Assembly (NCBI GenBank): GCA_016865035.1
Contig: CP018227.1
Location: 2,261,501-2,325,500, forward strand
Source of the DNA: Kordiimonadales bacterium IMCC3096
GTDB lineage: Bacteria > Pseudomonadota > Alphaproteobacteria > Minwuiales > Minwuiaceae
DNA length: 64,000 bases
Direction of reading: 5' to 3'
A model generated the notes under the pieces. It ran no database searches. It saw nothing but the letters and a program-made list of their open reading frames with translations, and was not told the origin of the DNA. The translations under genes were made by a program, and so were the position numbers. Positions 10,253 through 35,784 of the stretch are shown here, piece by piece (within the stretch, counting starts at the first letter, position 1; each line of letters begins with the position of its first letter).

Positions 10253-10720
<468 letters not shown>

Positions 10721-10784
10721 GTGACCCCGTCCTCCCTTGGTCGAAGAAATCTTGTGTGCATCCTGTATCGGCTTTGCCTCAGGC

Positions 10785-11525
10785 TCAAGAGACGAGAGCG
10801 ACCAGAACGAGAATCAATCCTGCAGCCCCCAGGAACCAGATCCAGGCAGGCAGTCGCCCGGACCCTGCCGGCTCCGGTTTCGGAGGCTGTGAAGGCGCGG
10901 CCTGCGGCGTCGGGCGCATCTCGGTCTCCGGCTGCGGCACATCGCTGACCGCCACCTCCGGTGCCGGGGTGTCCGCATCCGCCGGATCGGTCTCTGCCAC
11001 CGGCTGAGCCGGTGCCGCATCCGGGGCTTCAGCTTCCGGTGCCGCGGCTTCCTGCGGCTCCTCCGGTGCGCTGCTGTCGTCCGGTGTCTCGACATGTTCC
11101 CGGAAGTTGCTGAAGAACTGGTCGGCCAGCTTCTTGGCGGTGCCATCGATCAGGCGGGAGCCGATCTGGGCCAGCTTGCCGCCGACCTGGGCATCGACTT
11201 CATAGCTCAGCACCGTGCCGCCGCCGTCGCGGGCGTCCAGGCGCACATCCGCGCCGCCCTTGGCAAAACCGGCTGCGCCGCCCTTGCCGGACCCTTCGAT
11301 GCGATAGGACTCGGGCGGGTTGAGATCCTTCAGTTCGACGGAGCCGTTGAACTTGGCCTTCACCGGTCCGACCTTGGCGGTCACCGTTGCGGTCAGTTCG
11401 TTCTCTCCGGTCTTGTCCAGGGACTCGCAGCCGGGGATGCAGGCGCGCAGTACCTCCGGATCGTTCAGGGCTTCCCAGACCTTCTGCCTGTCTGCCTCGA
11501 GTTCGTAGGTTCCGGTGATCTTCAC
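10785..11525 (-). CDS. CoxG-like SRPBCC protein with C-terminal membrane anchor
   Basis: 246-aa protein with an N-terminal SRPBCC/START-type domain (about residues 1-150; opens [20 protein letters not shown]), a Pro/Ala/Glu-rich linker (about 155-222) and a single C-terminal membrane helix (about 224-243). CoxG of Oligotropha anchors CO dehydrogenase to the membrane, and related CoxG proteins can deliver hydrophobic substrates or quinone to the enzyme. The tail anchor and low-complexity linker fit that role. It is the first gene of the unit G-S-L-M. The 176-base gap to the divergent gpsA gene probably holds the promoters for both, though I see no clear match to a sigma-70 consensus. Confidence 0.85.
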
Positions 11526-11701
11526 TGGCTCACCTCCCTGTCAGGTTGGGCTGTTCGGGCGCATGGACACCCGAAGCGATTGTGATTGGCCGGAAACGTA
11601 GTGCGTCCGGAGCCCATTGCCCAATCAGCGGCCCGCCCTTACAGGGATTTGCGTCCCTATGACGCATCCATTCCGGCCGTCGCTGCCGCACCCTGAGACG
11701 C

Positions 11702-12604
11702 ATGAGCTACAAGATAGATATCGCCGTCGTCGGCGCCGGTGCCTGGGGCAATGCCCTGCAGGCCGCCATTGGCCGTGCCGGTCCCGGAACGACTCTTGCC
11801 GGGCGGGACGTGGACCAGCAGCGCAGCGCCATCGCCGGGGCTGACGCACTGCTGCTGGTCGTGCCTGCCCAGACGATCCGGGGCGTCCTGCAGGAACTGG
11901 CCGACAGCATTGATCCCGCTCTGCCCATCCTGATCTGCGCCAAGGGCCTGGAACGTGAAACCGGAGCCCTGTTGCCCGAAGTGGCGGCGGAGATTCTGCC
12001 GCACAATCCGGTGGGCATGCTCTCGGGTCCGAACTTCGCCGGGGAAGTCGCGCGCGGCCTGCCTGCCGCGGCGGTGCTGGCCTTCGACCCGTTGCAGAAG
12101 GCCGAGTACTGGGCCGCCGCCCTCGGGTCACCCGCATTCCGCCTCTACGCCAGCGATGATGTGGTGGGTGTGGCGTTGGGGGGGGCCATGAAGAACGTGC
12201 TGGCCATCGCCGCAGGGGCCGTGACCGGTGCGGGGCTGGGCCTGAACGCCCGTGCCGCGGTGATCTCGCGCGGGCTGGCGGAACTGCGCCGTCTCGGCCG
12301 CGCCATCGGTGCCCGCGATGAAACCCTCGCCGGTCTCTCCGGGCTCGGCGATCTGGTGCTGACCTGTACCGACGAGACCTCGCGCAACTATGCCTTCGGT
12401 GCGGCGCTGGGGCGTGACGGTGATCTGCCCGATGTACTGGTCGAGGGGGTGCATTCGGTCGAACCGCTGGTGCAGCGCGCGGCTGCGCTGGGGGTCGAGC
12501 TGCCCATCGCCATGGCCGTGCATGAGGTGCTGCACCTCGGCACACCGCTGCGTCAGGCGGTGGCCGACCTGCTCGCGCGTCCTGTGGGCGCAGCAGGGAA
12601 CTGA
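11702..12604 (+). CDS. gpsA: NAD(P)-dependent glycerol-3-phosphate dehydrogenase
   Basis: Reduces dihydroxyacetone phosphate to sn-glycerol 3-phosphate for phospholipid synthesis. 300 aa, shorter than the roughly 330 aa typical of GpsA but with no missing core motif. The dinucleotide-binding loop GAGAWGNAL is at residues 11-19, SGPNFAGEVARGLP near 110-123, and the catalytic lysine lies in GGAMKNVLAIAAG near residue 160. GLSGLGDLVLTCTDETSRN near 214-232 is the C-terminal-domain signature. It is transcribed divergently from the CoxG-like gene and converges on an alpha/beta hydrolase gene with 27 bases between stops. In many Alphaproteobacteria gpsA lies near tsaD; that neighbour is not here. 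Confidence 0.93.
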   Translation: MSYKIDIAVVGAGAWGNALQAAIGRAGPGTTLAGRDVDQQRSAIAGADALLLVVPAQTIRGVLQELADSIDPALPILICAKGLERETGALLPEVAAEILPHNPVGMLSGPNFAGEVARGLPAAAVLAFDPLQKAEYWAAALGSPAFRLYASDDVVGVALGGAMKNVLAIAAGAVTGAGLGLNARAAVISRGLAELRRLGRAIGARDETLAGLSGLGDLVLTCTDETSRNYAFGAALGRDGDLPDVLVEGVHSVEPLVQRAAALGVELPIAMAVHEVLHLGTPLRQAVADLLARPVGAAGN

Positions 12605-12631
12605 GTGTCCGCCGTCAGGCTGCCGACGGCC

Positions 12632-13591
12632 TCAGATTTCGGCCTTCAGGAAATCGTGCACGGTGTCGTAGAGCGCGTGGCGACAGCTTTCCAGCAACAT
12701 GGAATGGGTCGCGCCGCCGATCAGGGTGAAACGCTTCTCCTGCGCCGAAGCCAGCCGGTCGAAGACATCGCGGCCCTGTTCCGGTGTCGTTTCATGATCC
12801 CATTCGCCCACCACGACCTGTGTCGGGCAGGTGATGCGTGACGGATCCCACGTCGGGTCATTCTTCAGCCAGTGCTGCTGCACGTCCTGCACCACACCCG
12901 CCGGTGCGCGCAGGAACGGTGGCTGGTGGCTCCCGGCTTCCGGGTCGGTGGCCACGGCGGCGTCCGCCCAGGCGCGCATGGCCTCCGGTGTGCTGATCGC
13001 CGCCTTCTGATCCTCGTCCAGACCGATGCACCAGCGGCTGACCACCGCCTCCGCCTCGACCTTCCGCCACGCGCCGGGGATACCCATTGCACCGATCCCC
13101 TGTGTCGAGACCCGGCACCAGAGCGCCCCGGAAAGCACCAGTCGACGGACCTTGTCCGGGTTGCGTGCCGCGACTCCGCCGCCAATCGCGGTTCCCCAGG
13201 AATAGCCGACCAGGTCGAGCTGCTGAAGGCCGCGCCGGGCCAGAATGAAGTCGATGGCGCGCTCCACGTCCTGTTCGGCCACCGCGGTGCGGATGATCGG
13301 CGGATTGTCCTCCGCCGGGGCTGCCATCTCGGCCGGGCGGTCGGACAGGCCATAGCCGGGCAGGTCAATGCACCAGACATCGAAGCCACGGGCGGCCATC
13401 CAGTCCATCCAGGACACCCCCTCGACCGGATAGTCGAACATGATGGTGGAGGGGTAGGTCGCGCCATGGATGAACAGGACCGCCGGACCTTCCGCGTCCT
13501 GATGCTTGTTGCGCAGGGCCGTCTTCAGTCCCGGCAGGCTGCTGTCGATGAAATGATCCGTGCTGTTCATGCTGTCCGCCGTCGCCATCAC
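12632..13591 (-). CDS. Alpha/beta-hydrolase
   Basis: Alpha/beta-fold hydrolase of 319 aa. The oxyanion segment FIHGATYP lies at residues 40-47, the nucleophile elbow is G-Y-S131-W-G, the acid is probably the aspartate in GEWDHETTPEQG, and the histidine is in GGATHSMLLES near residue 300. The triad is therefore complete. Its start overlaps the stop of the UxaA-type dehydratase by four bases (ATGA), so the two proteins are made together and probably act in one route, such as sugar-acid or lactone metabolism. The exact substrate cannot be read; esterase, lactonase or C-C hydrolase are all possible. Confidence 0.82.
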   Translation of the reverse strand: MMATADSMNSTDHFIDSSLPGLKTALRNKHQDAEGPAVLFIHGATYPSTIMFDYPVEGVSWMDWMAARGFDVWCIDLPGYGLSDRPAEMAAPAEDNPPIIRTAVAEQDVERAIDFILARRGLQQLDLVGYSWGTAIGGGVAARNPDKVRRLVLSGALWCRVSTQGIGAMGIPGAWRKVEAEAVVSRWCIGLDEDQKAAISTPEAMRAWADAAVATDPEAGSHQPPFLRAPAGVVQDVQQHWLKNDPTWDPSRITCPTQVVVGEWDHETTPEQGRDVFDRLASAQEKRFTLIGGATHSMLLESCRHALYDTVHDFLKAEI

Positions 13592-15114
13592 ATCACCGCC
13601 CCGATCTGCCAGGGCAGGAACTCGTCATCGCCGAAGCCCAGCCGCTCCGAACAGGTAAGGTCACCGGAGGCGACCTCTATGATCCGGTCGAAGATCATCT
13701 GCCCCATCTCCTGCACCGATTTCTCGCCATCCACCACCAGACCGCAATTGATGTCCATGTCGTCGGACAGCCGCGAATACATCGCCGTGTTGGTGGCCAG
13801 CTTCATCGACGGCGTCGGCTTGCAGCCGAAGACGGAGCCGCGCCCCGTGGTGAAACAGACGACATTGGCCCCGCCCGCGACGAAGCCGGTGACGGAGACC
13901 GGGTCATAGCCGGGGGTATCCATGAAGACGAAGCCCCTGGCGGTGATCTTCTCGCCGTAGCTGTAGACATCGACCAGGTTCGTCGTGCCGCCCTTGGCCG
14001 CCGCGCCCAGGCTCTTCTCCAGAATGGTGGTCAGGCCACCGGCCTTGTTGCCCGGGCTGGGATTGTTGTCCATGGAGCCGCTGTTGCGGGCGACATAGTC
14101 TTCCCACCAGTGGATCTTGGTGATCAGTTTCTGCGCCACCTCTTCCGATACCGCGCGGCGGGTCAGCAGGTGCTCGGCACCATAGATCTCCGGTGTCTCG
14201 CCCAGACAGGCGGTGCCGCCGTGGCGCACCAGCAGGTCGGCGGCCGCACCCAGCGCCGGGTTGGCCGAGATGCCGGAGTAGGCATCGGAGCCGCCGCATT
14301 CCAGGCCCAGGATCAGTTCGGATGCCGGGATCGGTTCCCGTGCCTTGGCGTTGGCGTGGGGCAGCATCTCCTTCACCAGATCGATGCCCTTCTTCACGGT
14401 GGCTGTGGTGCCGCCGGAGTCCTGGATGGTGAACATGTGCAGCAGCGGCCCGGGTTTCAGCCCCTCCACATCCATCATCATGCCCAGCTGGGCGGCCTCG
14501 CAGCCGAGACCGATGAACAGCAGCCCGGCGAAGTTGGGGTGGCGCGCATATCCGGCAAAGGTGCGCGACAGCATCCGCATGCCCTCGCCGTCGGAGGCCA
14601 TGCCGCAGCCGGTACCGTGGGTCAGGGCCACCACGCCGTCGACGTTCGGGTACGCGGCCAGCATCTCGGGGCTGCGGAAATGGTCGGCGACATAGCGGGC
14701 CACCGTGGCGGAGCAGTTCACGGAGGTCAGCACGCCGATGTAGTTGCGGGTCGCCGCGCGGCCATTGTCACGCCGGAAGCCCTGAAACACGGCGCGCTCA
14801 TGCTCCGCGAAATGGTCCGTGGGCCGCACGTCCTGGCCGATGGCATAGTCCCGCTCGAAATCGCCGAACAGGCAGTTGTGGGTGTGGACATGGTCGCCGG
14901 GCGCGATTCCGCCCTCCGCAAAGCCGATGATCTGATTGTACTTGCGTACCGGATCGCAGGGACTGATTCCGCCCAGCGCGATCTTGTGACCGGCGGGAAT
15001 ATGGTGGTTCGCCGTGACGCCATAGGGCGCGATCCGCGTACCGGGCAGGATGTCCACCCGTGCCACGGCCACGTTGTCGGCCCCGTCAAGCCGGATCGTC
15101 AGAGCTTCGGTCAT
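13588..15114 (-). CDS. UxaA-family altronate/galactarate-type dehydratase
   Basis: Sugar-acid dehydratase family protein of 508 aa with an N-terminal SAF-like domain (about 1-95; contains HIPAGHKIALGGI) and a C-terminal UxaA catalytic domain (from about 105; RNYIGVLTSVNCSATVARY). Conserved segments include GTGCGM, LGLECGGSDAYSGISANPALG and MDNNPSPGNKAGGLTTI. Members dehydrate altronate or galactarate to 2-keto-3-deoxy acids with an iron or other metal centre. The ATG at 15114 was chosen because GGGAGGACGGGGA precedes it; the frame stays open 15 codons upstream without family similarity. It is coupled by an ATGA overlap to the downstream hydrolase. No sugar-acid transporter or regulator is adjacent, so the substrate is open. 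Confidence 0.87.
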   Translation of the reverse strand: MTEALTIRLDGADNVAVARVDILPGTRIAPYGVTANHHIPAGHKIALGGISPCDPVRKYNQIIGFAEGGIAPGDHVHTHNCLFGDFERDYAIGQDVRPTDHFAEHERAVFQGFRRDNGRAATRNYIGVLTSVNCSATVARYVADHFRSPEMLAAYPNVDGVVALTHGTGCGMASDGEGMRMLSRTFAGYARHPNFAGLLFIGLGCEAAQLGMMMDVEGLKPGPLLHMFTIQDSGGTTATVKKGIDLVKEMLPHANAKAREPIPASELILGLECGGSDAYSGISANPALGAAADLLVRHGGTACLGETPEIYGAEHLLTRRAVSEEVAQKLITKIHWWEDYVARNSGSMDNNPSPGNKAGGLTTILEKSLGAAAKGGTTNLVDVYSYGEKITARGFVFMDTPGYDPVSVTGFVAGGANVVCFTTGRGSVFGCKPTPSMKLATNTAMYSRLSDDMDINCGLVVDGEKSVQEMGQMIFDRIIEVASGDLTCSERLGFGDDEFLPWQIGAVM

Positions 15115-24432: not shown

Positions 24433-24757
24433 CGGTCCTGGCGGATTGCCATGCCTGTCCTCAATCTGACGCGGCCATTGCCAGCCGGACGACGACGGGT
24501 ATGCGCTCTTTCTGCAACAATCAGATGAAACAGGTGCCGGGACCGGACCGGAGCTGGGGCACTGTCCCGCGGCCGGAGCATCCGGATTCGCAGGGGTGTC
24601 GTGTAATTGTTTGAAATCACTTCAAGAAATATGTTCCCGCAGAAGGGCGGCGGGTTGCCCCGGATGCGTGAGGGGCGGGGCGGAGATGGACAGTTTTACG
24701 TTGACCCGTCTCCAAGCCGCCGATAAGTTTCCTGCAACTCATATCAGGAGACTTGAG
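24433..24757. other. 325-base gap before the Ala-rich protein gene
   Basis: No convincing gene lies here. The first half is ordinary GC-rich intergenic DNA. Around 24600-24635 there is an A/T-rich patch (TAATTGTTTGAAATCACTTC) that stands out from its surroundings and may bind a regulator. A sigma-70-like promoter is seen near the 3' end (separate entry). A frame in phase with the following gene is open here, but its codons are not family-like. Confidence 0.5.
24701..24729 (+). promoter_or_regulatory. Candidate sigma-70 promoter for the Ala-rich protein gene
   Basis: TTGACC at 24701-24706 and TAAGTT at 24724-24729 are separated by 17 bases, close to the housekeeping consensus TTGACA-N17-TATAAT. 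The predicted start would give a leader of about 20 bases before AGGAG and the ATG at 24758. This is sequence resemblance only. Confidence 0.4.
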
Positions 24758-25288
24758 ATGCGTAAGATTTTGGTTTCGTTCGTACTGCTGCTCGGTCTGG
24801 TTGTCACGGCCCCTCAGATGGCTTTCGCGCAGACCGCTGAACAGGGCCGCGCCGCTCTTCTTGCGGAATTGGAGGCCCTCGGGGTGTCCGAAGCCGATGC
24901 GGCGCCGGAAGATCTGGCTGATGCGGCCGCTGCGGCCATTGCCGCCAACCCGAGCCTGGCGACGGTGATTGTTCAGGCGGCTGTCGCGAGCCAGCCTGCT
25001 TCTGCGCCCTTGATCGTCGGGGGCATCGTTGCTTCTCCGGTCCTGCCCGCAGCAGTTTCCCCGGGTGCTGTTGCTGCCGCCGCAGCGGTCGTCGTGCCTG
25101 AGCAGTCAGCTCAGATTGTTGTCGCTGCTGCGACGTCTTCTGGTGCATCGATCGAGTCGATCGTGTCCGAGGTTGCTGCCTCGACCGGCCAGGACGAAGG
25201 TGATCTTGCTGCAGCCGCGGCCGAGGTTAGTGGCGACGATACCGAGCCGCTGAATTCCGGTGGTGAGGACGAAAGCTCAAGCGCCTGA
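24758..25288 (+). CDS. Secreted alanine-rich protein of unknown function
   Basis: 176-aa protein with a textbook signal peptide (MRKILVSFVLLLGLVVTAPQ, cleavage after MAFA). The mature part is very rich in alanine, valine and serine (for example GAVAAAAAVVVPEQSAQIVV) and ends in an acidic, serine-rich tail, DDTEPLNSGGEDESSSA. The ATG at 24758 has AGGAG seven bases upstream. I recognise no enzyme motif; short helical segments (ALLAELEALGVSEADAAPED and ASIESIVSEVAASTGQDEGD) recur with a similar pattern and may be weak internal repeats. It sits between the polysaccharide sugar transferase and the outer-membrane barrel gene, so a part in capsule or matrix export is possible but unproven. Confidence 0.75.
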   Translation: MRKILVSFVLLLGLVVTAPQMAFAQTAEQGRAALLAELEALGVSEADAAPEDLADAAAAAIAANPSLATVIVQAAVASQPASAPLIVGGIVASPVLPAAVSPGAVAAAAAVVVPEQSAQIVVAAATSSGASIESIVSEVAASTGQDEGDLAAAAAEVSGDDTEPLNSGGEDESSSA

Positions 25289-25389: not shown

Positions 25390-26604
25390 ATGAAAATTGT
25401 TTGGGGAAGTCTGGTTGCGGTTGCTGCGCTCAGTGTTGCTGGTGCCGCGCATGCACAGTCTCGCGACTATCAGCCGAATGGGGCGCGGGTTGGCAGCTTC
25501 ACGGTCTTTCCGTCCTTGACGGTTGGTCTCGAGTACACCGACAACGCGTTCCTTGAGGATACCAATACGGAAGACGACACCATCGCGCGTGTCCGCCCCG
25601 GTATCCTGGCGCGTTCGAACTTCAAGCGTCATGAGGTCGTGGCATCGTTCCTTGGCGACGCCACGTTCCACAGCACCAACAGCGATGACAATACCCTGGA
25701 CTTTGTTGCGCGACTTGGCGGTACCATCGAGGCGACCCGTGCGCTGCGCATTCTTCCGGAGGTTTCGTACAGGGCTGCATCCGAGCAGCGTGGTGACAAC
25801 AACGTCAACGCTCTTGCTGCCGAACCGTCCACGTTTGACGTGATGGCCGGTAAGGTGGACGCGATCTACAAGGCGGGTCGGGTCACTCTCGAAGCTGGTG
25901 CGGGCGTTTCCTATTCCGATTTCGACGACATTCCCCTTACCGGTGGTGGTCAGGCGGCCCAGAACGATCGTGACCGCCTGCGTCTCGACACGTCGGCAAA
26001 GGTCGCGTACGAGTTCCGCTCGAAGACAGACGTCTTCGTGAAGGGGACGTACTCGATGATCGACTTCGACAATGTTGATGCGGTTGTCGGGCAGAAGCGC
26101 GACTCCGACGTGTTCTCCGCGTTGGTTGGTGTGTCCCACAAGCCGACCGCACGGACGGAAGCCACGATCGGGGCCGGTTACATTGTCGAGAACTTTGACA
26201 ATAACGCGTTCGGCTCGGTTGACGGTTTTGCGGTCAACGGTGTCCTTGCCTGGGAGCTGAGCGCGCTCACCACGGTCACGGGGCGTGTTGAACGCCGCAT
26301 CGATCAGACGACCGACGCGAATTCTTCGTCGGAACTGGCCTGGAGCGGAAGTCTTGGTGTCCGCCATCAGCTGCGCCGCAACGTGGTTCTCGGCGGTGAC
26401 GTCGCGTACTCCAATCGCCTCTTCGAGGGTCGTACGAGCAATCGTGAAGATGACCGTTACGAGGCGAGCGCTCAGGCTGACTACTATATCAACCGGAACT
26501 TCTCCGTCGGTGCCAAGTACCGCTTCGCCCGCCGGATTTCCAACCTCGCAGGCAACGGCTTCTCCGAGAACCGTGTGCAGGCGACCGTCACTGCTCGCTT
26601 CTGA
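25390..26604 (+). CDS. Outer-membrane beta-barrel protein (BBP2-type)
   Basis: 404-aa exported protein with a signal peptide ending AHAQS at about residue 23. The mature chain shows alternating polar/hydrophobic beta strands with aromatic belts and ends in VQATVTARF, with the terminal phenylalanine typical of barrel assembly. The repeated pattern (LTVGLEYTDNAFL, VEAGAG-type strands, VAYEFRSKTDVFVKGTYS, ADYYINRNFSVGAKYRF) fits the 'putative beta-barrel porin 2' family often found in exopolysaccharide loci of Alphaproteobacteria. Next to the Wza-like gene it may be the outer-membrane channel or a companion of polysaccharide export. A terminator at 26616-26650 follows. Codon choice is richer in GTT and GCT than in neighbouring genes. 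Confidence 0.82.
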   Translation: MKIVWGSLVAVAALSVAGAAHAQSRDYQPNGARVGSFTVFPSLTVGLEYTDNAFLEDTNTEDDTIARVRPGILARSNFKRHEVVASFLGDATFHSTNSDDNTLDFVARLGGTIEATRALRILPEVSYRAASEQRGDNNVNALAAEPSTFDVMAGKVDAIYKAGRVTLEAGAGVSYSDFDDIPLTGGGQAAQNDRDRLRLDTSAKVAYEFRSKTDVFVKGTYSMIDFDNVDAVVGQKRDSDVFSALVGVSHKPTARTEATIGAGYIVENFDNNAFGSVDGFAVNGVLAWELSALTTVTGRVERRIDQTTDANSSSELAWSGSLGVRHQLRRNVVLGGDVAYSNRLFEGRTSNREDDRYEASAQADYYINRNFSVGAKYRFARRISNLAGNGFSENRVQATVTARF

Positions 26605-26696: not shown

Positions 26697-27257
26697 ATGC
26701 GTTGTGTAGTTTGGTTTCGGCGCAGTTTTCTGAGTTGCATTGTCCTTGTCTTCTCGATGGTATCGACCGCCGTTCTGGCGCAATCAAACCTGCAGTACAA
26801 ATTGGGACCCGGTGATAATCTGCGGGTCCTGGTCTTTGGCGAAGAAGACCTTTCCGGCGAGTTCGAGGTCGATGGCAATGGCCGGATCTCGATGCCTCTG
26901 ATTGGTGTCGTCGATCTTCAGGATCGGTCCCTGCGCGAAGCCGAAGCCCGGATTGTCGAATTGCTGCTTGACGGGTATCTGCGAAATCCCAAGGTCAGTA
27001 TCGACGTCCTGAACTACCGGCCTTTCTACATTCTGGGCGAAGTGAACGAGCCCGGAAGCTATCCCTACCGCGCAGGCATGACGGTCCTGAATGCAGTCGT
27101 GCTGGCAGGGGGCTACACCCCCCGGGCCGATGAGGACGATATCACCATCCAGCGGGGAACAGACGCCGTCGATCCGGATGGCAAGGGGCAGCCCGTCAAA
27201 CCGACCACGATCGTGCTTCCCGGCGACATCGTTCGGGTCGAGGAACGTTTCTTCTGA
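26697..27257 (+). CDS. Polysaccharide export protein (Wza-like, Poly_export + SLBB)
   Basis: 186-aa exported protein. The signal peptide ends near VLAQS at residue 29 with no lipobox cysteine in the usual place, so it may be soluble or periplasmic. The Poly_export domain (about 33-105; YKLGPGDNLRVLVFGEEDLS, then GRISMPLIGVVDL) is followed by one SLBB beta-grasp domain (about 110-150; FYILGEVNEPGSYPYRAGM, VVLAGGYTPRADED). It is half the length of E. coli Wza; short exporters of this size are common in Alphaproteobacteria and are thought to work with a separate barrel, possibly the gene just upstream. No tyrosine kinase/co-polymerase gene (Wzc) is adjacent. Confidence 0.88.
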   Translation: MRCVVWFRRSFLSCIVLVFSMVSTAVLAQSNLQYKLGPGDNLRVLVFGEEDLSGEFEVDGNGRISMPLIGVVDLQDRSLREAEARIVELLLDGYLRNPKVSIDVLNYRPFYILGEVNEPGSYPYRAGMTVLNAVVLAGGYTPRADEDDITIQRGTDAVDPDGKGQPVKPTTIVLPGDIVRVEERFF

Positions 27258-27459: not shown

Positions 27460-28263
27460 ATGCCCACAATAGGTTCCATTCTTCGCTCGCTTGTTCTCGG
27501 TCCGTCCGCCGACGGGGAGACCACGGGACCCGGCCAGGACCGCGCGTCCCCGCAACTGCCTGATCACCGCACGATCTACGCGATCGGCGACGTCCATGGC
27601 CGGGCCGACTGCCTGCAGCGCCTGATCGAAGTGATCAGCGAGGATGTATCCGGCACGGCGGCGGGATCGCCGGTTCTCCTCTTCCTTGGCGACTATATCG
27701 ACCGGGGTGACGAGAGCCGCGCGGTCCTCGACATCTGCACTGACATTGCTGCGTTCTGGCGGGATGAGACCGTCTTTCTCCGTGGCAACCATGAGGACGC
27801 CATGATGACGTTCCTCTCCGACCCCGTCGGGGGTGCGGCCTGGCTCCGTTTCGGCGGCCTGTCCACGCTGATGAGCTATGGTGTCCCCAACGTTTCCGAG
27901 AGCATGTCGGAGGGACGCCTGGTCGAAGCGGCGGCGACGCTGGCCCGCCAGCTGCCGGAAGACCACCTCCACTTCCTGGAGAAGACGCGGCTGACACATA
28001 CCGAAGGCAACGTCCATTTCTGTCATGCCGGTGTTGATCCGGACCAGGAAATCGGAAACCAGTCACCGCGAACCCTGATGTGGGGTGAGGGTACGGCTGC
28101 GCCGGCACCGGACTATCCCTACATCGTGGTCCATGGTCACGTGGTGGTGGACGGGCCTGTCCTGCGGCCCCGTGAGGTCAATGTCGATACAGGGGCATAT
28201 TTCTCCGGCCATCTGACCTGCGCCCGCATCGCCAGCGGCAGTATCCGGTTCCTGCAGACCTGA
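27460..28263 (+). CDS. PPP-family serine/threonine phosphatase (metallophosphoesterase)
   Basis: 267-aa cytoplasmic phosphatase with all metallophosphoesterase signatures in order: GDVHGR (43-48), GDYIDRG (77-83), GNHE (109-112), and histidines in VHFCHAGV and VVHGH. The core resembles bacterial PrpA/PrpB and lambda-type phosphatases. An N-terminal extension of about 36 residues has no recognisable motif. It might reverse protein phosphorylation linked to envelope or polysaccharide control, since it lies between the exopolysaccharide exporter and a caspase gene; that is inference. Both flanking gaps exceed 120 bases, so it may have its own promoter. Confidence 0.9.
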   Translation: MPTIGSILRSLVLGPSADGETTGPGQDRASPQLPDHRTIYAIGDVHGRADCLQRLIEVISEDVSGTAAGSPVLLFLGDYIDRGDESRAVLDICTDIAAFWRDETVFLRGNHEDAMMTFLSDPVGGAAWLRFGGLSTLMSYGVPNVSESMSEGRLVEAAATLARQLPEDHLHFLEKTRLTHTEGNVHFCHAGVDPDQEIGNQSPRTLMWGEGTAAPAPDYPYIVVHGHVVVDGPVLRPREVNVDTGAYFSGHLTCARIASGSIRFLQT

Positions 28264-28390: not shown

Positions 28391-30292
28391 ATGAGAAAGC
28401 TGACCGGCTTCATTGCAGGCACGATCATCGCGCTGACGCTGTCCGCAGCGGCGCAGGCGGAACGGCGTGTTGCACTCATCATCGGCAACGCTGATTACAC
28501 CAAGGCTCCCGACCTCCGGAACCCGGTGAACGATGCACGGTCGATGGCCAAGCGGCTGAAGGAACTTGGTTTCGAACTCAGCGGCGGCACACACCACGAG
28601 AATGTCACCCGTGTGGAAATGGCCCGGCTGGTCCGGCGTTTCAGCTCTGAGGTCGGACGCGACGACACGGCCTTCATCTTCTATGCCGGACACGGCATTG
28701 GCGCACATGGCACGAACTGGATGGTGCCGACGGACGACTCCGATATCCAGACGGCCCTCGACCTCCCCGACTTCGCGATTTCTGTCAGTTCACTCATGGA
28801 GCGGCTGGAGCGCAGGCAGGGCGGTACCAATATCGTCATGCTCGACGCCTGCCGCGACAACCCACTGCCCAGTGACACCCGATCCTCCGGCGCCACCCGT
28901 GGTCTTGGTCGCATGAAGGCGCCGAATGGCACCTTCATTGCCTATGCAGCTGACCCGGGACAAGTGGCGTTCGACGGCGAAGGCAACAACGGCCTTTTCA
29001 CCGAATCGCTGATGCGTGCGCTCGAGAAGCCTGACCGCCCGCTCTACGAGATCCTGCGTGAGGTTCGCAGGGATGTCCGCCGCAAGACGTCCGGCGCGCA
29101 GACTCCCTGGACCGAGGAATCGCTGAACGACGAGTTCTTCTTCGTGGAGCCGCGTGAGGAATCCACGGTGCGTGTTGCCGCGCTGCAGCCCCAGACGCAG
29201 CCAGTTGCACCGCCGCCCGCAGCCGCGCCGCAGACCAGTGGCTGGCTGAATACGGCGCCCGCCGCCCCGGCACAGCAGCCGGTTGCCGCGCAGGCCCCCG
29301 CACCGGCACCGGTCGCATCTGCTCCGCCTGCCCTGCAGTCGATCGAGACGGCACCGCCTGCCCAGTCCGAACAGGTTGTGGCAATGGTTTCCCCGTCGCG
29401 CACGACAGGTCAGTCCGCAACCTCGGTCGCGCCTGAACCCGCCGTGGTGGCTGCCGCACCCGCTGCGCCTGAGCCGGTACGGGTGGCCGCCGCAACCGTC
29501 GCACCGCCGGCGACTTCCGCGCCTGCCGCACCCAGGATCGATTCGGCGCTGCTCGCTTCGACGGTGGGTGAGATGGTCACGATCAACCCGGCACCTTTCC
29601 AGGTCATGCAGGCTTCGGGCGCTCCCGGGACGACTGTCCGCATCGCCCATCGCTTTGCACTGGGCAAGTTCGAGGTCACGTTCGACATGTGGGATGCCTG
29701 CGTTGACGAGGGTGGCTGCCTTGGCTATCGCCCGAGCGACGACGGCGAAGGCCGTGGCGAGCGGCCGGTGATGAACGTCGAATGGAAGCACACCCAGGCG
29801 TTCCTGGAATGGGCGAACCGTCGTCTCGGTCTGACCGGTCAGCCTGATGCGCTTCGTCTGCCGACGGAGGCAGAGTGGGAGTATGCCGCGCGTGCGGGGT
29901 CGTCCTCGACCTTCTATTTCGGCGACGAACAGGACGAGATCTGCCGCCACGCGAATGTCATGGACTACTACGGTGGCCGTTATTTCCCGATCTTCCCGGC
30001 AGTCGACTGCGATGACGATTATGTCCGTCCCGCGCCGGTCGGCTCCTATGCACCGAACGGTTTCGGCCTGCATGACATGATCGGCAATGTTTCCGAATGG
30101 ACTCAGGACTGCTGGTCCCGCAAGTACGGCACGATTGCCTCCGACGGCAGCGCCTATGTCGCGCAGCGCTGTGACTATCACGTGACGCGCGGCGGTTCGT
30201 GGATGGTGACGCCGAAGAACATGGGCGAGCGCGCCAGGGGCTACAAGGGAACCGAGAACCTGGGCTTCCGCGTCGCTCGCACGCTGCCCTGA
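28391..30292 (+). CDS. Secreted caspase-family protease fused to a formylglycine-enzyme-like domain
   Basis: 633-aa exported protein. Signal peptide 1-23 ends AAAQA. Caspase (C14/metacaspase) domain at about 25-255: catalytic H101 in FYAGHGIG and C154 in LDACRDNP are both present. A Pro/Ala-rich linker spans about 265-385. The C-terminal domain (about 390-633) is of the formylglycine-generating-enzyme/sulfatase-modifying type: LGKFEVTFDMWDACVDEGG, RLPTEAEWEYAARAG, MIGNVSEWTQDC, TRGGSW, LGFRVART. The two catalytic cysteines of real FGE are missing (RGGSW is followed by MVTPKNM), so this part is probably a binding module. A strong terminator follows. Confidence 0.9.
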   Translation: MRKLTGFIAGTIIALTLSAAAQAERRVALIIGNADYTKAPDLRNPVNDARSMAKRLKELGFELSGGTHHENVTRVEMARLVRRFSSEVGRDDTAFIFYAGHGIGAHGTNWMVPTDDSDIQTALDLPDFAISVSSLMERLERRQGGTNIVMLDACRDNPLPSDTRSSGATRGLGRMKAPNGTFIAYAADPGQVAFDGEGNNGLFTESLMRALEKPDRPLYEILREVRRDVRRKTSGAQTPWTEESLNDEFFFVEPREESTVRVAALQPQTQPVAPPPAAAPQTSGWLNTAPAAPAQQPVAAQAPAPAPVASAPPALQSIETAPPAQSEQVVAMVSPSRTTGQSATSVAPEPAVVAAAPAAPEPVRVAAATVAPPATSAPAAPRIDSALLASTVGEMVTINPAPFQVMQASGAPGTTVRIAHRFALGKFEVTFDMWDACVDEGGCLGYRPSDDGEGRGERPVMNVEWKHTQAFLEWANRRLGLTGQPDALRLPTEAEWEYAARAGSSSTFYFGDEQDEICRHANVMDYYGGRYFPIFPAVDCDDDYVRPAPVGSYAPNGFGLHDMIGNVSEWTQDCWSRKYGTIASDGSAYVAQRCDYHVTRGGSWMVTPKNMGERARGYKGTENLGFRVARTLP

Positions 30293-30305
30293 TACCTGAC
30301 CGTTC

Positions 30306-30342
30306 AGGGGCCGGATCATTGCAACATGATCCGGCCCCTTTT
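30306..30342 (+). terminator. Strong intrinsic terminator after the caspase-FGE gene
   Basis: Perfect 14-base inverted repeat AGGGGCCGGATCAT / ATGATCCGGCCCCT with a 6-base loop (TGCAAC), continuing into TTTTCC. It lies 13 bases after the stop codon and should end transcription before the CHASE2 cyclase gene, so that gene needs its own promoter or read-through. Confidence 0.9.
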
Positions 30343-30415
30343 CCGTCTCCGGAAATGAGCATCCTTCCTGACATTGGCGTTTCACCTGGCGCGGCCTGCC
30401 AGCTGCGGTTGCACG

Positions 30416-32413
30416 ATGCTTAGATTTCTGCGTCACCGTCTCGCCCTGACGGTTATCGTCACCCTGCTCACTCTGGCGGTTACGGAGATGGCCTTTCGTG
30501 CCGTACCGGGCCTTGAGTTCATGGATCAGCGCCTGAACGATTTCCTTCTGGTGAATTCGGTTCAGGTCGATCCCGAGTCCAGGCCTGCGGTGGCAATCGT
30601 CACCTTCACCGAGACGACACTCGCCAGCCTGCCTTACCGTTCGCCGCTGGACCGCGGGTTTCTTGCCGACCTGCTGGATGGTCTGGCGAAGGTCGGCGTG
30701 CGCTCGGTCGGGTTCGATATCCTGTTCGACCAGCCAACCGAGCCGGAGAAGGATCAGCGCCTGATCGACGCCATTCAGCGATTTCCGGGGCCGGTGATCG
30801 TCGCCTGGGCCGATGCACGTGCCGGGCTGATCGAGGCCCAGTCCGCCTGGCTTGACGATTTCATCGCACGCAGCGGCGCCATTCCCGGCTTTGCCAATGT
30901 CACGATCGACACGGACGGTCTGGTTCGCCGCTATGATCTCAATCTGCCGCGGACGGATATTCTCAGCCTTCCCGGCGCGATGCTGAAGGCCAATGGTCAC
31001 GGCTTTCCTGCGGCGGAATCAGGACTGATCAGCTGGCGTACGCCAGCCGATGCCAACTCCCAGGCCTTCCCCGTGCTGGCCAGTCAGGGCGTGCTCGCCA
31101 TCTCCAGGATCCGCCCTGCCGCGCTGAAGCCCGCGCTGGAGGGGCGCCTGGTGCTGGTTGGTGCGGATCTGCCGCAACAGGACCGCCACCGCACCAGTCT
31201 GTCCGCATCCCTGAACCCTGCGGTTCCGGTGCTGACGGCGGGTGTCGAGATACATGCAAACATCATCGACCAGATCGTCAATGCGCGCTCTGTCCCCGAA
31301 GCGGACGAGACACAGCGCTGGCTGATCATCATTCTCGTCTCGTTTCTGGGGGCGCTGCTCGGCGTGCTCGAGATGTCGATGGCGGTGCGCCTGCTTGGTG
31401 TCGTCGTTCTGGCTGGCGGCTACGCCTTTCTTGTCTGGTACTCGGCGATCGGCAATCTGCCCTTGCTCCCGGCTTCCCGCCCCGTGGCAATCCTGATCCT
31501 GGCGTTCGTGGCGACGACGACCTTGCGCGCCTATCTTGCGCGGCGTGACGGGCGCTTCATCCGTGATGCCTTCTCGCAATATCTGGCACCGGCACTGGTG
31601 GATGAACTGACCCGCCATCCCGAACGCCTGAAGGTGGGCGGCGAGCGGAAGGAGATGAGCTTTCTGTTCTCCGACATTGCCGGTTTCACCGGACTCAGCG
31701 AGCGCCTGGAACCGGAACGGCTTTCGAGCCTGCTGAATGGTTATCTCGATGGCATGAGCGAGATCGTGCTGAAGCACGGTGGCACGATCGACAAGTTCAT
31801 CGGCGATGCCGTCGTGGCCCTGTTCGGCGCACCGACCGCGATGGACGACCATGCGATGCGGGCCATTCGCTGTGCGATCGAGATGGACGTGTTCTCCGAG
31901 CGGTATCGAATCGAGAATGCGGATGTGACGATGGGAATCACCCGCATCGGTGTCCACAGCGGCGAAGCCATCGTTGGCAACTTCGGGGGCGCCAATCGGT
32001 TCGATTACACGGCCATGGGCGATTCGATGAACATCGCGGCCCGGCTGGAGGCCGCCAACAAGCACTTCGGAACCCGCGTGGCGGTCAGCGAGGCTTCGCT
32101 GTCCCGGGCATTTCCCGAATCGCACGGGGACAAACTTGTCCTGGACGATGCCACGATCCTGCCGATCGGCAATGTGATCCTGAAGGGGAAGAAACAGCCG
32201 GTAACGGTCTATACATGCTTGCAGGATATGGATACCACGGTTGCAGCGGACTACCGGAATGCCTATGTGGCAATGGATGGTGATGCGGCACGGGCCGCTG
32301 CGCTGCTGACTGCGATTGGCGAAGGCCTTGCGGTTCATCCGCTGGCGGCGCTGCATCTGCGGCGTCTTGAGGCCGGTGAGACTGGCGCGACCTTCGAACT
32401 GCTAGAGAAGTAA
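30416..32413 (+). CDS. CHASE2-domain class III adenylate/guanylate cyclase
   Basis: 665-aa membrane signalling protein. An N-terminal membrane helix (about 6-26) is followed by an extracytoplasmic CHASE2 sensor domain (about 30-290; includes VGVRSVGFDILFDQPTEPEK and GRLVLVGADL), three membrane helices (about 305-385) and a cytoplasmic class III cyclase domain (about 415-610). Catalytic features are visible: the metal aspartates in FLFSDIAGFTGLSERL and KFIGDAVVALFGAP, and YTAMGDSMNIAARLE. It should make a cyclic nucleotide in response to an envelope signal. The ATG at 30416 was chosen; a TTG at 30374 is in frame. It lies between the caspase-FGE gene and a secreted protein gene. Confidence 0.9.
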   Translation: MLRFLRHRLALTVIVTLLTLAVTEMAFRAVPGLEFMDQRLNDFLLVNSVQVDPESRPAVAIVTFTETTLASLPYRSPLDRGFLADLLDGLAKVGVRSVGFDILFDQPTEPEKDQRLIDAIQRFPGPVIVAWADARAGLIEAQSAWLDDFIARSGAIPGFANVTIDTDGLVRRYDLNLPRTDILSLPGAMLKANGHGFPAAESGLISWRTPADANSQAFPVLASQGVLAISRIRPAALKPALEGRLVLVGADLPQQDRHRTSLSASLNPAVPVLTAGVEIHANIIDQIVNARSVPEADETQRWLIIILVSFLGALLGVLEMSMAVRLLGVVVLAGGYAFLVWYSAIGNLPLLPASRPVAILILAFVATTTLRAYLARRDGRFIRDAFSQYLAPALVDELTRHPERLKVGGERKEMSFLFSDIAGFTGLSERLEPERLSSLLNGYLDGMSEIVLKHGGTIDKFIGDAVVALFGAPTAMDDHAMRAIRCAIEMDVFSERYRIENADVTMGITRIGVHSGEAIVGNFGGANRFDYTAMGDSMNIAARLEAANKHFGTRVAVSEASLSRAFPESHGDKLVLDDATILPIGNVILKGKKQPVTVYTCLQDMDTTVAADYRNAYVAMDGDAARAAALLTAIGEGLAVHPLAALHLRRLEAGETGATFELLEK

Positions 32414-32483
32414 ACGTGACCGTTGTACGTGAAATCGGGGCAGAGTTCGGATATATTGCCGCTTGGGTCTGGGATAAAGTGTG

Positions 32484-33254
32484 ATGGATATGAAAAAAGT
32501 GCGTGTATTTGGATCTCGACGAGCGCTTGGTTTCGCCTTCGCTGCTCTGATTGCGATCACGGCCTGGGCGCCCCGTGCGCACGCGGCAGATGTGATCGTG
32601 CTTGATTCAACCATCTCCGCGTTTTCACCGGGGACGTCCTTGCCGGCAAATGCCTATGTGGACATTCCCGATGGTGGAAGCATCAGTCTGATGGACAGTG
32701 CCGGCGGCACCCGGGTCTTGCGTGGACCCTATACAGGTGCCGTGGCATCCGACGCGCCTGCGGGCGATGGTGGCGTCATGTCGATGCTCGGACAGCTGGT
32801 CAAGGAAGACGAGCGGGAGCGTTCCCAGCTCGGCGCCGTGCGCGCCTTCTCCAAGGATGACCTGCTGCGGGACCCGCTTGCCATTGATGTTTCGCGCAAC
32901 ACGACATTCTGTCTGCCGCCTGCTGCCAGCCCGAAGTTCTGGCGTCCCGGTTCGCTCGACCGTGATACCCGTTTCTCCGTCAAGGACTGGTCTAGCTCGG
33001 ATGAGCCTCTGGTCGCCTACTGGCGCAAGGGAGACCGGGAACTCGGCTGGCCGCCGACGCTTTCCACCGCTGACGGTACGACCTTCCTGATGAAGGTGGA
33101 GGCTGCGCGATCTGCAGCCGAGGTCACGATCCTGAAGGTGCCGGAACATGTGGGCGGCGATCTGGAGACCATCGTCTGGATGGCCCAGCACGGGTGCCGT
33201 GAACAGGCCCGTCGCATGGTCGGCAGCATCCGCGCACCCGCCGGGACACAGTAA
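32484..33254 (+). CDS. Secreted protein of unknown function, weakly FecR-like
   Basis: 256-aa exported protein: a signal peptide of about 31 residues ends PRAHAADV. Residues 35-85 show a beta-rich pattern (ISAFSPGTSLPANAYVDIPD, GSISLMDSAGGTRVLRGPYT) that resembles FecR-like or periplasmic sensor proteins. The C-terminal half contains two cysteines (NTTFCLPP and QHGCREQ) that could form a disulfide. I see no enzyme motif. The start is one of GTG 32481, ATG 32484 or ATG 32490. It follows the CHASE2 cyclase by 70 bases on the same strand, so it may supply or present the signal sensed by CHASE2. Function is unknown. Confidence 0.7.
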   Translation: MDMKKVRVFGSRRALGFAFAALIAITAWAPRAHAADVIVLDSTISAFSPGTSLPANAYVDIPDGGSISLMDSAGGTRVLRGPYTGAVASDAPAGDGGVMSMLGQLVKEDERERSQLGAVRAFSKDDLLRDPLAIDVSRNTTFCLPPAASPKFWRPGSLDRDTRFSVKDWSSSDEPLVAYWRKGDRELGWPPTLSTADGTTFLMKVEAARSAAEVTILKVPEHVGGDLETIVWMAQHGCREQARRMVGSIRAPAGTQ

Positions 33255-33333: not shown

Positions 33334-35784
33334 TCAGCCCCTGACGCGTGTCGACTGCGGGTCGTACATCGGTCGCAACGATGCTCTGGCAGGGAAGCGT
33401 CTGCCGGCAATCTCGATCTCGTAGTCGGATCCAAGCAGGTCATCGGAACTCTGTCCGCTACAGGGCACATATCCCATGCCGAGTGTGCCCCCCAGCGTGT
33501 GACCGTAGGCCCCTGACGTGATCGTGCCGATGATCCGGCCATCACGCATGATCGCCTCGTTATGGAAGATCATCGCCTCCGGATCCGTGACGAGAAACTG
33601 CATCAGACGGCGTTCCAGCCCGTCTTCGCGCTTCCGCAGAACGGCCTCACGACCGATGAAGGGCCCCTTGTCCGTGCGCACGGCGAATCCCAGGCCAGCT
33701 TCGAGGACATGATCCTCGTCCGTGATGTCATGGCCGAAATGGCGGAATCCCTTTTCCATGCGGCATGAATCCATGGCGTGAAGCCCGCAGAGGCGCAGGC
33801 CGTGGTCCTGTCCGGCCTGCCGCAGGGTCTCGAAGACATGCATGGCCATCTCCGTCGAGACATAGAGCTCGTAGCCATGCTCTCCGACATAGGAAATGCG
33901 GTGTGCCCGCGCCAGCGCCATCCCGATCTCGATCTGCCGGGCCGTCCCGAAGGGCTGCGCCGTATCCGCGAAGTCATCCGGGGAGCAAGCCTGAAGCACG
34001 GCCCGCGCGTCCGGTCCCATCAGGCAGAGCACCGCCTCCGCCGCCGTCACGTCGGTGAGCGTCACATGCAGATCCGGATCTAGGTGGCGACGCAGCCATG
34101 CCATGTCCCGGACCAGCGTCGCGCCGGGTACGACCAGCAGGAACGCGGTTTCGGAGAGCCGGGTCACCGTCAGGTCCGACTCGATACCACCGCGCGGGTT
34201 GAGCATCTGCGTGTAGGTGATGCGGCCCTCGGCAACATCCATCTGGTTGGCCATGAGAGTCTGCAGGAAGGGCAGGGCGTCCCGGCCCTCGACCCTGATC
34301 TTGCCGAATGAGGACATGTCGTAGAGACCGGCACCTTCGCGCAGGGCCCTGTGTTCCCGCGCCTGACTGGCGAACCAGTTCTGGCGATGCCAGTCATGGT
34401 CATAACGGGCGACTTCGCCCGCTTCGGCGAACCAGTTGGCCCGCTCCCAGCCTGCCGCCTCTCCGAATACGGCACCTTCGGCTGCCAGGGCACCGTGCAG
34501 GGGGGACCGGCGGATGCCGCGCGCGGTGTCGGGCTGGCGATAGGGGTAGTGGTCGGCATACAGCAGACCCAGGCTCTCGCTCACCCGCTCCCGCAGATAG
34601 GTTCGGTTGCGCTGAAACGGCTGGGCGCGGCGGATATCGACCTCCCAGAGGTCGAAGGGCGGTTCCCCCTCCGCGATCCAGTGTGCCAGCGCATATCCGG
34701 CCCCGCCGGACGAGACGATGCCGATGGAATTGTACCCGGCGGCCACCCAGTAGCCCTTCAGCTCGGGGGCCTCCCCCAGATAGTAGCGATCATCGGGCGT
34801 GAAGCTCTCGGGTCCGTTGAAGAAGGTGTGGATCCCGGCCTTCTCCAGCAGCGGCATACGGTTCACTGCCGTGGTGAAGATCGGTTCGAAATGATCGAAA
34901 TCCTCTGGCAACTGGTCGAAGCAGAAGTCCTCTGCAATGCCGTCCATGCCCCAGGGCTTGGCCTTGGGCTCGAAGGCTCCCAGCATCAGCTTGCCGGCGT
35001 CTTCCTTGAAATAGGCATGTTCGTCCGGCACCCGCAGCACCGGCAGCCGACCCAGGTCGGCCACAGGTTCCGTCACCAGATAGAAGTGTTCGCAGGCATG
35101 CAGCGGCAGGGTCACACCGGATTGCGCGGCAAACTCGCGCCCCCACATCCCGGCGCAATTGATCACCACATCGGTCGCAGTGCGCCCCGCTTCCCCTCCG
35201 GCTTCCCAGGTCACGGCACGGACCTGTCCCGCAACGGTCTCGACACCGGTCACCTTCACATGCTCGATCACCGTCGCGCCCGCCATCCGCGCCCCGCGCG
35301 CCAGCGCCAGCGCGATATTGCCCGGATCGCACTGGCCGTCGCCGGGCAGATGCACGCCCGCGGTCACGCCGTCGGTATTCAGGTGCGGATAGAGCGCCTT
35401 GACCTCGGCGGGGGAAATCTCGTGCACCTCCACATCGAAGGCCCGGGCCAGCGTGGCCTGGCGCAGGATCTCCGCACGCCGGTGTTCGGTCAGCGCCACG
35501 GTGATCGATCCGGTGCGGCGCATGCCCGTGGCGATGCCGGTCTCTGCCTCCAGCTTCGCATAGAGGTCAGCGGAATATTTCGCGAGCCGTGTCATGTTGC
35601 GGGACGCCCGCAACTGACCGATCAGGCCTGCGGCGTGCCAGGTGGTGCCGCTGGTCAGTTGCTGGCGTTCCAGCAGCACGATCTCGGTCCAGCCCAGTTG
35701 CGCCAGATGATAGGCAACGGAACAGCCGGAGACCCCGCCACCCACGATGACGGCGCGCGCCTGCTCCGGCGGTCGGATGCTCAT
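33334..35784 (-). CDS. FAD-dependent dimethylglycine/sarcosine dehydrogenase-like enzyme
   Basis: 816-aa two-part flavoenzyme. The N-terminal half (about 1-430) is a D-amino-acid-oxidase-type FAD domain with IVGGGVSGCSVAYHL at 13-27 and TSGTTWHAAGL, where H50 matches the histidine that binds FAD covalently in mammalian dimethylglycine and sarcosine dehydrogenases. The C-terminal half (about 440-816) is a GcvT-type folate-binding domain (MSSFGKIRVEGRDALPFLQ, GPDARAVLQ, YELYVSTEMAMHVF), which captures the released methyl as methylene-tetrahydrofolate. It demethylates an N-methyl amine; the precise amine is open. It ends the two-gene unit started by the VOC-family gene (ATGA overlap). Confidence 0.9.
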   Translation of the reverse strand: MSIRPPEQARAVIVGGGVSGCSVAYHLAQLGWTEIVLLERQQLTSGTTWHAAGLIGQLRASRNMTRLAKYSADLYAKLEAETGIATGMRRTGSITVALTEHRRAEILRQATLARAFDVEVHEISPAEVKALYPHLNTDGVTAGVHLPGDGQCDPGNIALALARGARMAGATVIEHVKVTGVETVAGQVRAVTWEAGGEAGRTATDVVINCAGMWGREFAAQSGVTLPLHACEHFYLVTEPVADLGRLPVLRVPDEHAYFKEDAGKLMLGAFEPKAKPWGMDGIAEDFCFDQLPEDFDHFEPIFTTAVNRMPLLEKAGIHTFFNGPESFTPDDRYYLGEAPELKGYWVAAGYNSIGIVSSGGAGYALAHWIAEGEPPFDLWEVDIRRAQPFQRNRTYLRERVSESLGLLYADHYPYRQPDTARGIRRSPLHGALAAEGAVFGEAAGWERANWFAEAGEVARYDHDWHRQNWFASQAREHRALREGAGLYDMSSFGKIRVEGRDALPFLQTLMANQMDVAEGRITYTQMLNPRGGIESDLTVTRLSETAFLLVVPGATLVRDMAWLRRHLDPDLHVTLTDVTAAEAVLCLMGPDARAVLQACSPDDFADTAQPFGTARQIEIGMALARAHRISYVGEHGYELYVSTEMAMHVFETLRQAGQDHGLRLCGLHAMDSCRMEKGFRHFGHDITDEDHVLEAGLGFAVRTDKGPFIGREAVLRKREDGLERRLMQFLVTDPEAMIFHNEAIMRDGRIIGTITSGAYGHTLGGTLGMGYVPCSGQSSDDLLGSDYEIEIAGRRFPARASLRPMYDPQSTRVRG

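Follow-up and report, generated by a model that had tools for sequence, protein, structure and literature searches.

We analysed a 64,000-nucleotide stretch of the genome of Kordiimonadales bacterium IMCC3096 (contig CP018227.1, positions 2,261,501 to 2,325,500 of the forward strand; hereafter the window), a genome of 4.29 Mb in a single contig. Three consecutive plus-strand genes in the window (Table 1) encode a peptidase of the C14 (caspase) family, a receptor-type nucleotide cyclase with a CHASE2 sensor, and a small secreted protein of an orphan family. A preliminary description had named three genes of these types and had suggested that they form an envelope signalling module. The three reading frames are open and intact, Pfam matches and catalytic residues bore out the gene types, and the locus very probably encodes such a module. 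Relatives of the three genes recur together in other genomes, and from this recurrent co-occurrence we infer a shared function.

Table 1. Features of the locus and its surroundings, in window coordinates
Feature	Position	Strand	Evidence
C14 peptidase with FGE/lectin-like domain, export-type N-terminus	28391..30292	+	Pfam, residue positions, PDB sequence matches
H101 codon	28691-28693	+	within peptidase gene
C154 codon	28850-28852	+	within peptidase gene
FGE domain	~29570-30280	+	within peptidase gene
Strong hairpin between the peptidase and cyclase genes (stem of 14 pairs followed by TTTT); probably a terminator or a processing site	30306..30342	+	fold, sister genomes
CHASE2 receptor-type class III nucleotide cyclase	30374..32413, alternative ATG 30416	+	Pfam, hydropathy, motifs
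Secreted orphan-family protein, signal peptide by eye	32481..33254	+	70-row family alignment
PPP-type calcineurin-like phosphatase, neighbour, not a conserved module part	27460..28263	+	Pfam
BBP2 outer-membrane barrel, local context	25390-26604	+	Pfam, NCBIfam, sister-genome synteny
Wza-type polysaccharide export protein, local context	26697-27257	+	Pfam, NCBIfam, sister-genome synteny

Proteins encoded at the locus

The first protein is 633 residues long and matches Peptidase_C14 (1.6e-39) in Pfam, together with FGE-sulfatase (2.9e-43), which places its second part in that domain family. H101 and C154 were found where the preliminary description had located them, and they form the His-Cys dyad expected of an orthocaspase. 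The closest sequences in the PDB are the MALT1 paracaspase for the C14 part and PvdO for the FGE part; the MALT1-like alignment of the C14 part puts acidic residues at D48, D152 and D195, which we take to be pocket residues that matter. True formylglycine-generating catalysis was considered and rejected: a Cys pair after GGSW, presumably the copper-binding motif of a true FGE, is absent, and none of the 12 FGE rows (duplicates included, L131 among them) has a Cys in the 22 residues after GGSW or GGSF. Cys elsewhere in the FGE domain is conserved. Inspection by eye gave Sec-type N-termini for the first and third proteins, in keeping with the earlier view of both as exported. A 19-residue hydropathy scan flagged no long stretch in these two proteins, which is what a signal peptide would give.

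In the loci collected from other genomes, the peptidase gene is of either the C14 or the CHAT kind. The active-site His and Cys are kept in 20 of 20 C14 rows and 19 of 19 CHAT rows, duplicates included (L129, L130, L132, L134 and L136). Nearly all of the rows have an exported or lipoprotein-type N-terminus by a score that takes the best of several starts and is hence lenient; two rows are truncated by contig ends, and both sets include peptidases that do not adjoin an orphan gene (L096-L098). Since the catalytic pair is kept and the N-termini are of export or lipoprotein type, these peptidases should meet the other parts of the module in the periplasm rather than in the cytoplasm. The C14 partners carry FGE, Sel1 plus SH3, WD40 or long N-terminal parts, and the CHAT partners carry TPRs. 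To our knowledge, bacterial caspase homologues are numerous and few have a known physiological role.

Some of the peptidase loci include very large proteins. Outside the class, C14 forms the C-terminus of proteins of 1347-2249 residues beside the orphan gene (L158, L161, L162, L163, L165 and L166). In L141-L144, proteins of 2327-3136 residues adjoin the CHAT version of the module; Pfam scans of those in L141-L143 found a two-partner secretion (TPS) domain in all three and MBG repeats in two.

The second protein comprises 679 residues from its TTG start, or 665 from the alternative ATG, and matches CHASE2 (8.7e-32) and Guanylate_cyc (1.2e-18) in Pfam. Hydropathy shows one N-terminal and about three further hydrophobic segments, which flank CHASE2, so that CHASE2 should face the outside of the inner membrane. 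A CHASE2 domain with flanking membrane segments is thus joined to a class III cyclase, and Pfam and hydropathy together support the earlier placing of the sensor outside the cell membrane. The cyclase retains FSDIAGFT, DKFIGDAV and GDSMNIAARLE, which we take to be the catalytic motifs. Its nearest sequences in the PDB are adenylate cyclases, and its product may be cyclic AMP (cAMP).

The third protein, of 257 residues, has no match in Pfam or NCBIfam. It had been called FecR-like, a label that we abandoned: neither database gave a family match (FecR is PF04773), and hhalign returned 0.3% against two FecR domains, a thin test. Members of this orphan family were found in 17 of 96 related genomes with a single-protein search, in 41 of 387 genomes of the class with a profile built from 11 sequences, and in 25 of 397 genomes of the phylum, the host genome being counted each time; 11 of the last set lie outside the class, one of these a weak match. 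In the 70-row family alignment four residues never vary (G82, C144, C239 and Q242), while R121 is found in 99% of rows and G118 in 96% (G118-x-x-R121). Most other positions of the stretch 88-135 are variable, L103 and L106 standing at about 70%. Some members extend into a DUF4384 domain. An AlphaFold model built from 8 sequences is of poor quality (pLDDT 58.6), with two beta-rich halves and two C-terminal helices; it gave no Foldseek match at E 1e-3, and a search of the PDB with the orphan profile gave no credible relative.

A second small family, A6, comprises proteins of 190-232 residues with two invariant cysteines, encoded directly beside CHASE2. The two families are probably distant kin, since a protein of L128 that is in neither profile's alignment matches both, the orphan profile at 1e-6 over residues 1-85 and the A6 profile at 4e-56. 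The A6 profile was built from seven proteins that it then describes, so that the L128 match is the independent one; hhalign of A6 against the orphan family gave 72% over 45 columns only, a weak result by itself. As called, the A6 member of L184 has no signal-like start. In two genomes of the window's genus, a further CHASE2-cyclase locus encodes a C14 peptidase and an A6 protein (L096, 6530-10725; L097, 8720-15412). L097 also has a CHAT gene, placed between those for the C14 peptidase and the cyclase.

Recurrence and part exchange across genomes

Neighbourhoods were counted within 8 kb of each orphan gene. The class sample covered the 41 genomes with an orphan member (rows of G001, G003, G005 and G008, which are not among the 41, were left out), and its 44 match rows gave 43 orphan places once a second fragment in G024 was dropped. 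A CHASE2 gene was found near 38 of the 43 places, where uniform placement expects 0.55, and a C14 or CHAT gene near 27, where 0.6 is expected (C14 near 13, CHAT near 15). Counted by family group, CHASE2 was present in 21 of 21 groups and a peptidase in 15 (C14 in 9, CHAT in 11, both kinds in 5). As a control, we asked how often a peptidase lies equally near to CHASE2 genes in the same 41 genomes, among which contig-edge fragments are included. This was the case for 6 of 87 CHASE2 genes with no orphan nearby and for 28 of 41 orphan-linked ones (Fisher p 8e-13, kinship ignored). All six exceptions have an A6-family protein directly beside CHASE2.

In the phylum sample, neighbourhoods were taken for 25 loci from 21 of the 25 genomes; G000 and G150 were already in the collection, and G590 (partial matches) and G601 (a weak match) were left aside. 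For this sample and for the collected loci (L numbers), C14, CHAT, CHASE2, CRP and ShlB genes were called with profiles built from collected loci and a simple gene finder of our own. CHASE2 was near 18 places, C14 near 10 and CHAT near 4; either peptidase was near 14 of the 25, and CHASE2 or a peptidase near 23. The remaining two places are on a 5-kb contig and next to a large neighbour that is cut by the contig start. Of 59 nearest pairs of orphan and CHASE2 genes, 49 share a strand, and in 21 the two genes overlap or abut. The preliminary description had proposed repeated co-occurrence as its check, and such co-occurrence was found across the class and beyond. The association of the genes far beyond chance is confirmed.

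The exact triple also recurs. In Azospirillum ramasamyi an orphan-DUF4384 protein, a CHASE2 cyclase and a 904-residue C14-FGE protein are encoded consecutively, and a Crp/Fnr gene lies two genes beyond them on the other strand. C14-FGE, orphan and CHASE2 cyclase genes lie within one stretch in three further genomes (L120, L121, L123). A quick C14 tree separated the module C14-FGE proteins of Minwuia and of Azospirillum-type genomes into two lineages, which suggests that the C14-FGE pairing arose or was re-supplied at least twice. Within the window's own genus, the window's group has C14-FGE and the sisters G003 and G006 have CHAT.

We also built a quick tree of 63 CHASE2 cyclases, 41 orphan-linked and 22 others, the latter being mostly best CHASE2 matches rather than all 87. 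Linked cyclases make up 40 of the 43 rows of one group, and linkage changes 4 times on the tree, against 18.3 with shuffled labels (0 of 500 shuffles as low). On the same tree C14 and CHAT replace each other 6 times; one row labelled as having neither, L107, does have a CHAT gene that the gene finder missed, and L082 is cut by a contig end. The output is exchanged as well, since the CHASE2 receptor of L163 carries HisKA-HATPase-REC-Hpt instead of a cyclase. Collectively, the CHASE2 and orphan genes mostly stay and the peptidase type and output domain are swapped. A separate arrangement was seen on the minus strand of L124, near an orphan-CHASE2-cyclase pair, where a CHASE2-EAL protein with a possible cyclic di-GMP output is encoded next to a FecR-domain protein (10349-12685 and 12801-14759).

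A proposed signalling pathway and its alternatives

Because CHASE2 and the orphan family form the most constant pair, we read the secreted protein as a periplasmic partner of the CHASE2 sensor, and the kinase relay of L163 indicates that the common ground of the module's parts is periplasmic. The core of the module would then be a CHASE2 receptor in the inner membrane and the small secreted partner, which may sit on the sensor from the periplasmic side; most copies have an exported caspase-clan peptidase encoded next to them. The FGE/lectin-like, Sel1/SH3, WD40, cadherin-like or TPR part of the peptidase may recognise a cue at the surface or in the envelope. The peptidase would cut or otherwise engage the partner-CHASE2 complex and so change cyclase activity, and cAMP would act through a Crp/Fnr-type protein on surface products (through the kinase output in L163). 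Genes for cyclic-nucleotide-binding (cNMP-binding) proteins are present within 8 kb of at least 9 of the 43 orphan places (a raw count), and the annotated Sphingobium and Azospirillum loci have Crp/Fnr genes. Taken as a whole, this chain of peptidase, receptor and cAMP seems to us plausible, if a little short of probable, and the narrower claim that the peptidase is the input and the partner its target is put forward tentatively.

A candidate cut site lies after R121 of G-x-x-R, between the two halves of the partner. Orthocaspases cleave C-terminal to positively charged residues (PMC6426788), and the C14 part of the window protein is nearest to MALT1, which makes G-x-x-R121 a candidate for cleavage. 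A caspase-gated receptor, in which a cut after G-x-x-R121 switches CHASE2 and envelope proteolysis is turned into cAMP or a phosphorelay inside the cell, is conceivable but doubtful. If it were true, the prokaryotic caspases of these loci would be signalling rather than death proteases, and C14 and CHAT would be interchangeable in one slot.

The peptidase might instead be an output of the system: CHASE2 and its partner would sense the envelope, and cAMP or the kinase would induce genes including that of the exported peptidase, for example for exoprotein maturation or envelope remodelling. CHAT versions of the module do stand beside secretion genes. All 4 CHAT places of the phylum sample have ShlB within 8 kb, and the Sphingobium locus has it too; further upstream neighbours were examined for five of the 15 class-sample CHAT places, and in each of the four that were scanned with Pfam (G012, G171, G245, G134) these included a TPS exoprotein or ShlB. 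HlyD or parts of outer-membrane efflux systems occur near some orphan loci, and the cNMP-binding proteins encoded near orphan places would suit an output as well. In Sinorhizobium meliloti, the targets of the CyaD1D2K-Clr system include non-cytoplasmic proteins, and a role of these in signal perception found no support there (PMC5498481). However, one and the same receptor-partner core has repeatedly acquired peptidases of different lineages, and the link persists with a histidine kinase receptor (L163) and, as in the window, with no visible exoprotein gene nearby. We therefore regard the peptidase as output as somewhat unlikely and favour it as input, because the cytoplasmic output changes while the periplasmic parts stay.

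We also considered a death or anti-phage module, in which the caspase would be a killing protease armed by a cyclic nucleotide, as in bacterial caspase or Pycsar systems. A part in cell death is often discussed for prokaryotic caspases (PMC3501461), and the window proteins match PADLOC models, one for caspase at 1.5e-14 and those for the PycC cyclase at 5.2e-28 for the best. These matches are limited to the shared catalytic domains, however, and the orphan protein has no PADLOC match; full-length matches together with a partner effector, which would mark a Pycsar or caspase defence system, were not found at the locus, and membership in either was rejected. Moreover, the peptidases have export-type N-termini, the cyclase is a membrane receptor whose sensor faces outward, and gene order at the locus is shared with three sister genomes (G001, G002, G004). 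Such a function is very improbable.

Several observations weigh against peptidase, receptor and partner acting as one pathway. Some concern the genes. Sixteen of the 43 orphan places have no C14 or CHAT gene within 8 kb, some of them on short contigs; five have no CHASE2 gene; and five places of the phylum sample have a peptidase and no CHASE2 gene in that range. Peptidase and orphan genes share a strand in only 27 of 44 pairs. Among 147 distinct C14 or CHAT places in the 41 genomes, 28 are near an orphan gene and 35 near any CHASE2 gene, which indicates that most of these peptidases work elsewhere. In the window itself, the hairpin stands between the peptidase and cyclase genes, and the module has no cNMP-binding gene in its vicinity: of 11 match rows in the genome, the closest is about 280 kb off. 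Others concern the cut. R121 is kept throughout the family, both in places with a peptidase nearby and in those lacking one, and may thus be conserved for structural reasons, and the poor model of the partner makes "linker" a weak term for the region around it. CHAT proteases need not share the preference of C14 for basic residues. Interaction, cleavage and control of the cyclase by the peptidase are postulated, and gene clustering cannot tell a peptidase that is input from one that is output.

The hairpin had been described as a strong terminator. The structure itself is real, with a fold of -52 kcal/mol over 131 nucleotides (z -2.7). Two sister genomes retain it, one of them showing a compensatory change from a C-G to a T-A pair; two other sister genomes have different sequences at this position. 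It is a probable terminator or processing site, with only four T after the stem, and was absent from the list given by a consensus terminator scan of the window. By setting the peptidase gene apart, the hairpin fits the view that only CHASE2 and the orphan are linked and that the peptidase is a hitch-hiker in a region where envelope genes cluster, as do the orphan places with no peptidase and an upstream phosphatase gene that is local to the sister genomes. The peptidase data argue otherwise: 27 places have one where 0.6 would be expected, the control gave 28 of 41 for orphan-linked CHASE2 genes and 6 of 87 for the others, 15 of 21 family groups have a peptidase, and separate lineages were recruited. 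Chance proximity of the peptidase is accordingly quite unlikely.

Relation to known systems and to neighbouring genes

Pairing of a CHASE2 receptor with a periplasmic partner is known, and the exported caspase-clan peptidase and the orphan family are new. TPR-CHAT proteases such as Csx29, and HetF (named in PMC10028731 and PMC8406250), are CHAT peptidases with TPRs like those in the CHAT version of the module. They are cytoplasmic or divisome-linked, whereas the CHAT proteins of the module have export or lipoprotein-type N-termini under the lenient score. Known metacaspases offer a parallel for the C14-FGE pairing, FGE being found in 33 (4.9%) of metacaspase sequences, and a Trichodesmium protein fuses C14 and CHASE2 in one chain (PMC3501461; PMC2853523). 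The Trichodesmium fusion differs in being read as a cytoplasmic caspase, and the operon section of PMC3501461 names no cyclase or CHASE2 operon.

Among cyclases, the closest parallel is S. meliloti, whose CyaD1, CyaD2 and CyaK are receptor-like adenylate cyclases acting with Clr, CyaD1 with a CHASE2 domain; Clr targets there include a FecR-domain protein and a periplasmic protein of unknown function (PMC5498481). In the pSymB record a large FecR plus TPR gene overlaps the cyaK start by one base. Unlike our loci, that stretch has no orphan member and no C14 or CHAT gene by our local profiles, and cyaK falls outside the orphan-linked cyclase group. The BiofilmReg operon of Burkholderia likewise has a periplasmic-type partner gene (FecR-LysM) beside a CHASE2 receptor gene, but with a histidine kinase output and a FecR partner, and the words caspase, CHAT and cyclase are absent from the text of PMC5192318. 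The window locus was rejected as a BiofilmReg member, its receptor being a cyclase and its partner matching no FecR model. In Magnetospirillum, a signal-peptide protein, MtxA, is encoded before a CHASE2-cyclase gene; MtxA is described with TPR and Ig-like domains (PMC4439547), whereas the orphan profile has no credible relative in the PDB.

In open-access papers we found no description of an exported peptidase of the caspase or CHAT kind next to a CHASE2 receptor and the orphan family. In 2016, what CHASE2 sensors respond to was described as unknown (PMC5192318). For an exported caspase, the conserved trio offers a defined substrate and a readout that can be tested, and for CHASE2 a candidate trigger. 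Exchange of C14 for CHAT and of kinase for cyclase takes place around one receptor-partner core and shows which parts probably touch, and recurrence across distant bacteria points to an undescribed way of sensing cell-envelope events.

Directly upstream of the module in the window are genes for a sugar transferase, the BBP2 barrel and the Wza-type protein, followed by that for the PPP phosphatase (Metallophos 2.1e-14), whose presence had been noted before. These genes raise the alternative that, in this genus, the caspase-FGE protein, the phosphatase and the CHASE2 cyclase serve the adjoining exopolysaccharide genes as a control unit. The upstream polysaccharide genes do recur in the sister genomes, and a BBP2 relative is present at 15924-17510 of L096, another CHASE2-C14 locus of the window's genus. 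Against such a unit, among loci L080-L140 the polysaccharide neighbours accompany the module in the sister genomes only, apart from that BBP2 relative and, where L127 ends, a fragment resembling Wza, and they were rejected as module parts. Such a polysaccharide control unit is unlikely. A role of the phosphatase in the module was likewise set aside, since its relatives among L080-L140 are confined to the window's sister genomes.

Two further genes flank the region. Between the sugar transferase and the BBP2 barrel, an Ala-rich protein (24596-25288) has relatives in two sister genomes and no family match above the cut-off. Downstream and convergent with the module, positions 33334-35784 encode a fusion of a FAD oxidoreductase and an aminomethyltransferase (GcvT), an ordinary enzyme type.

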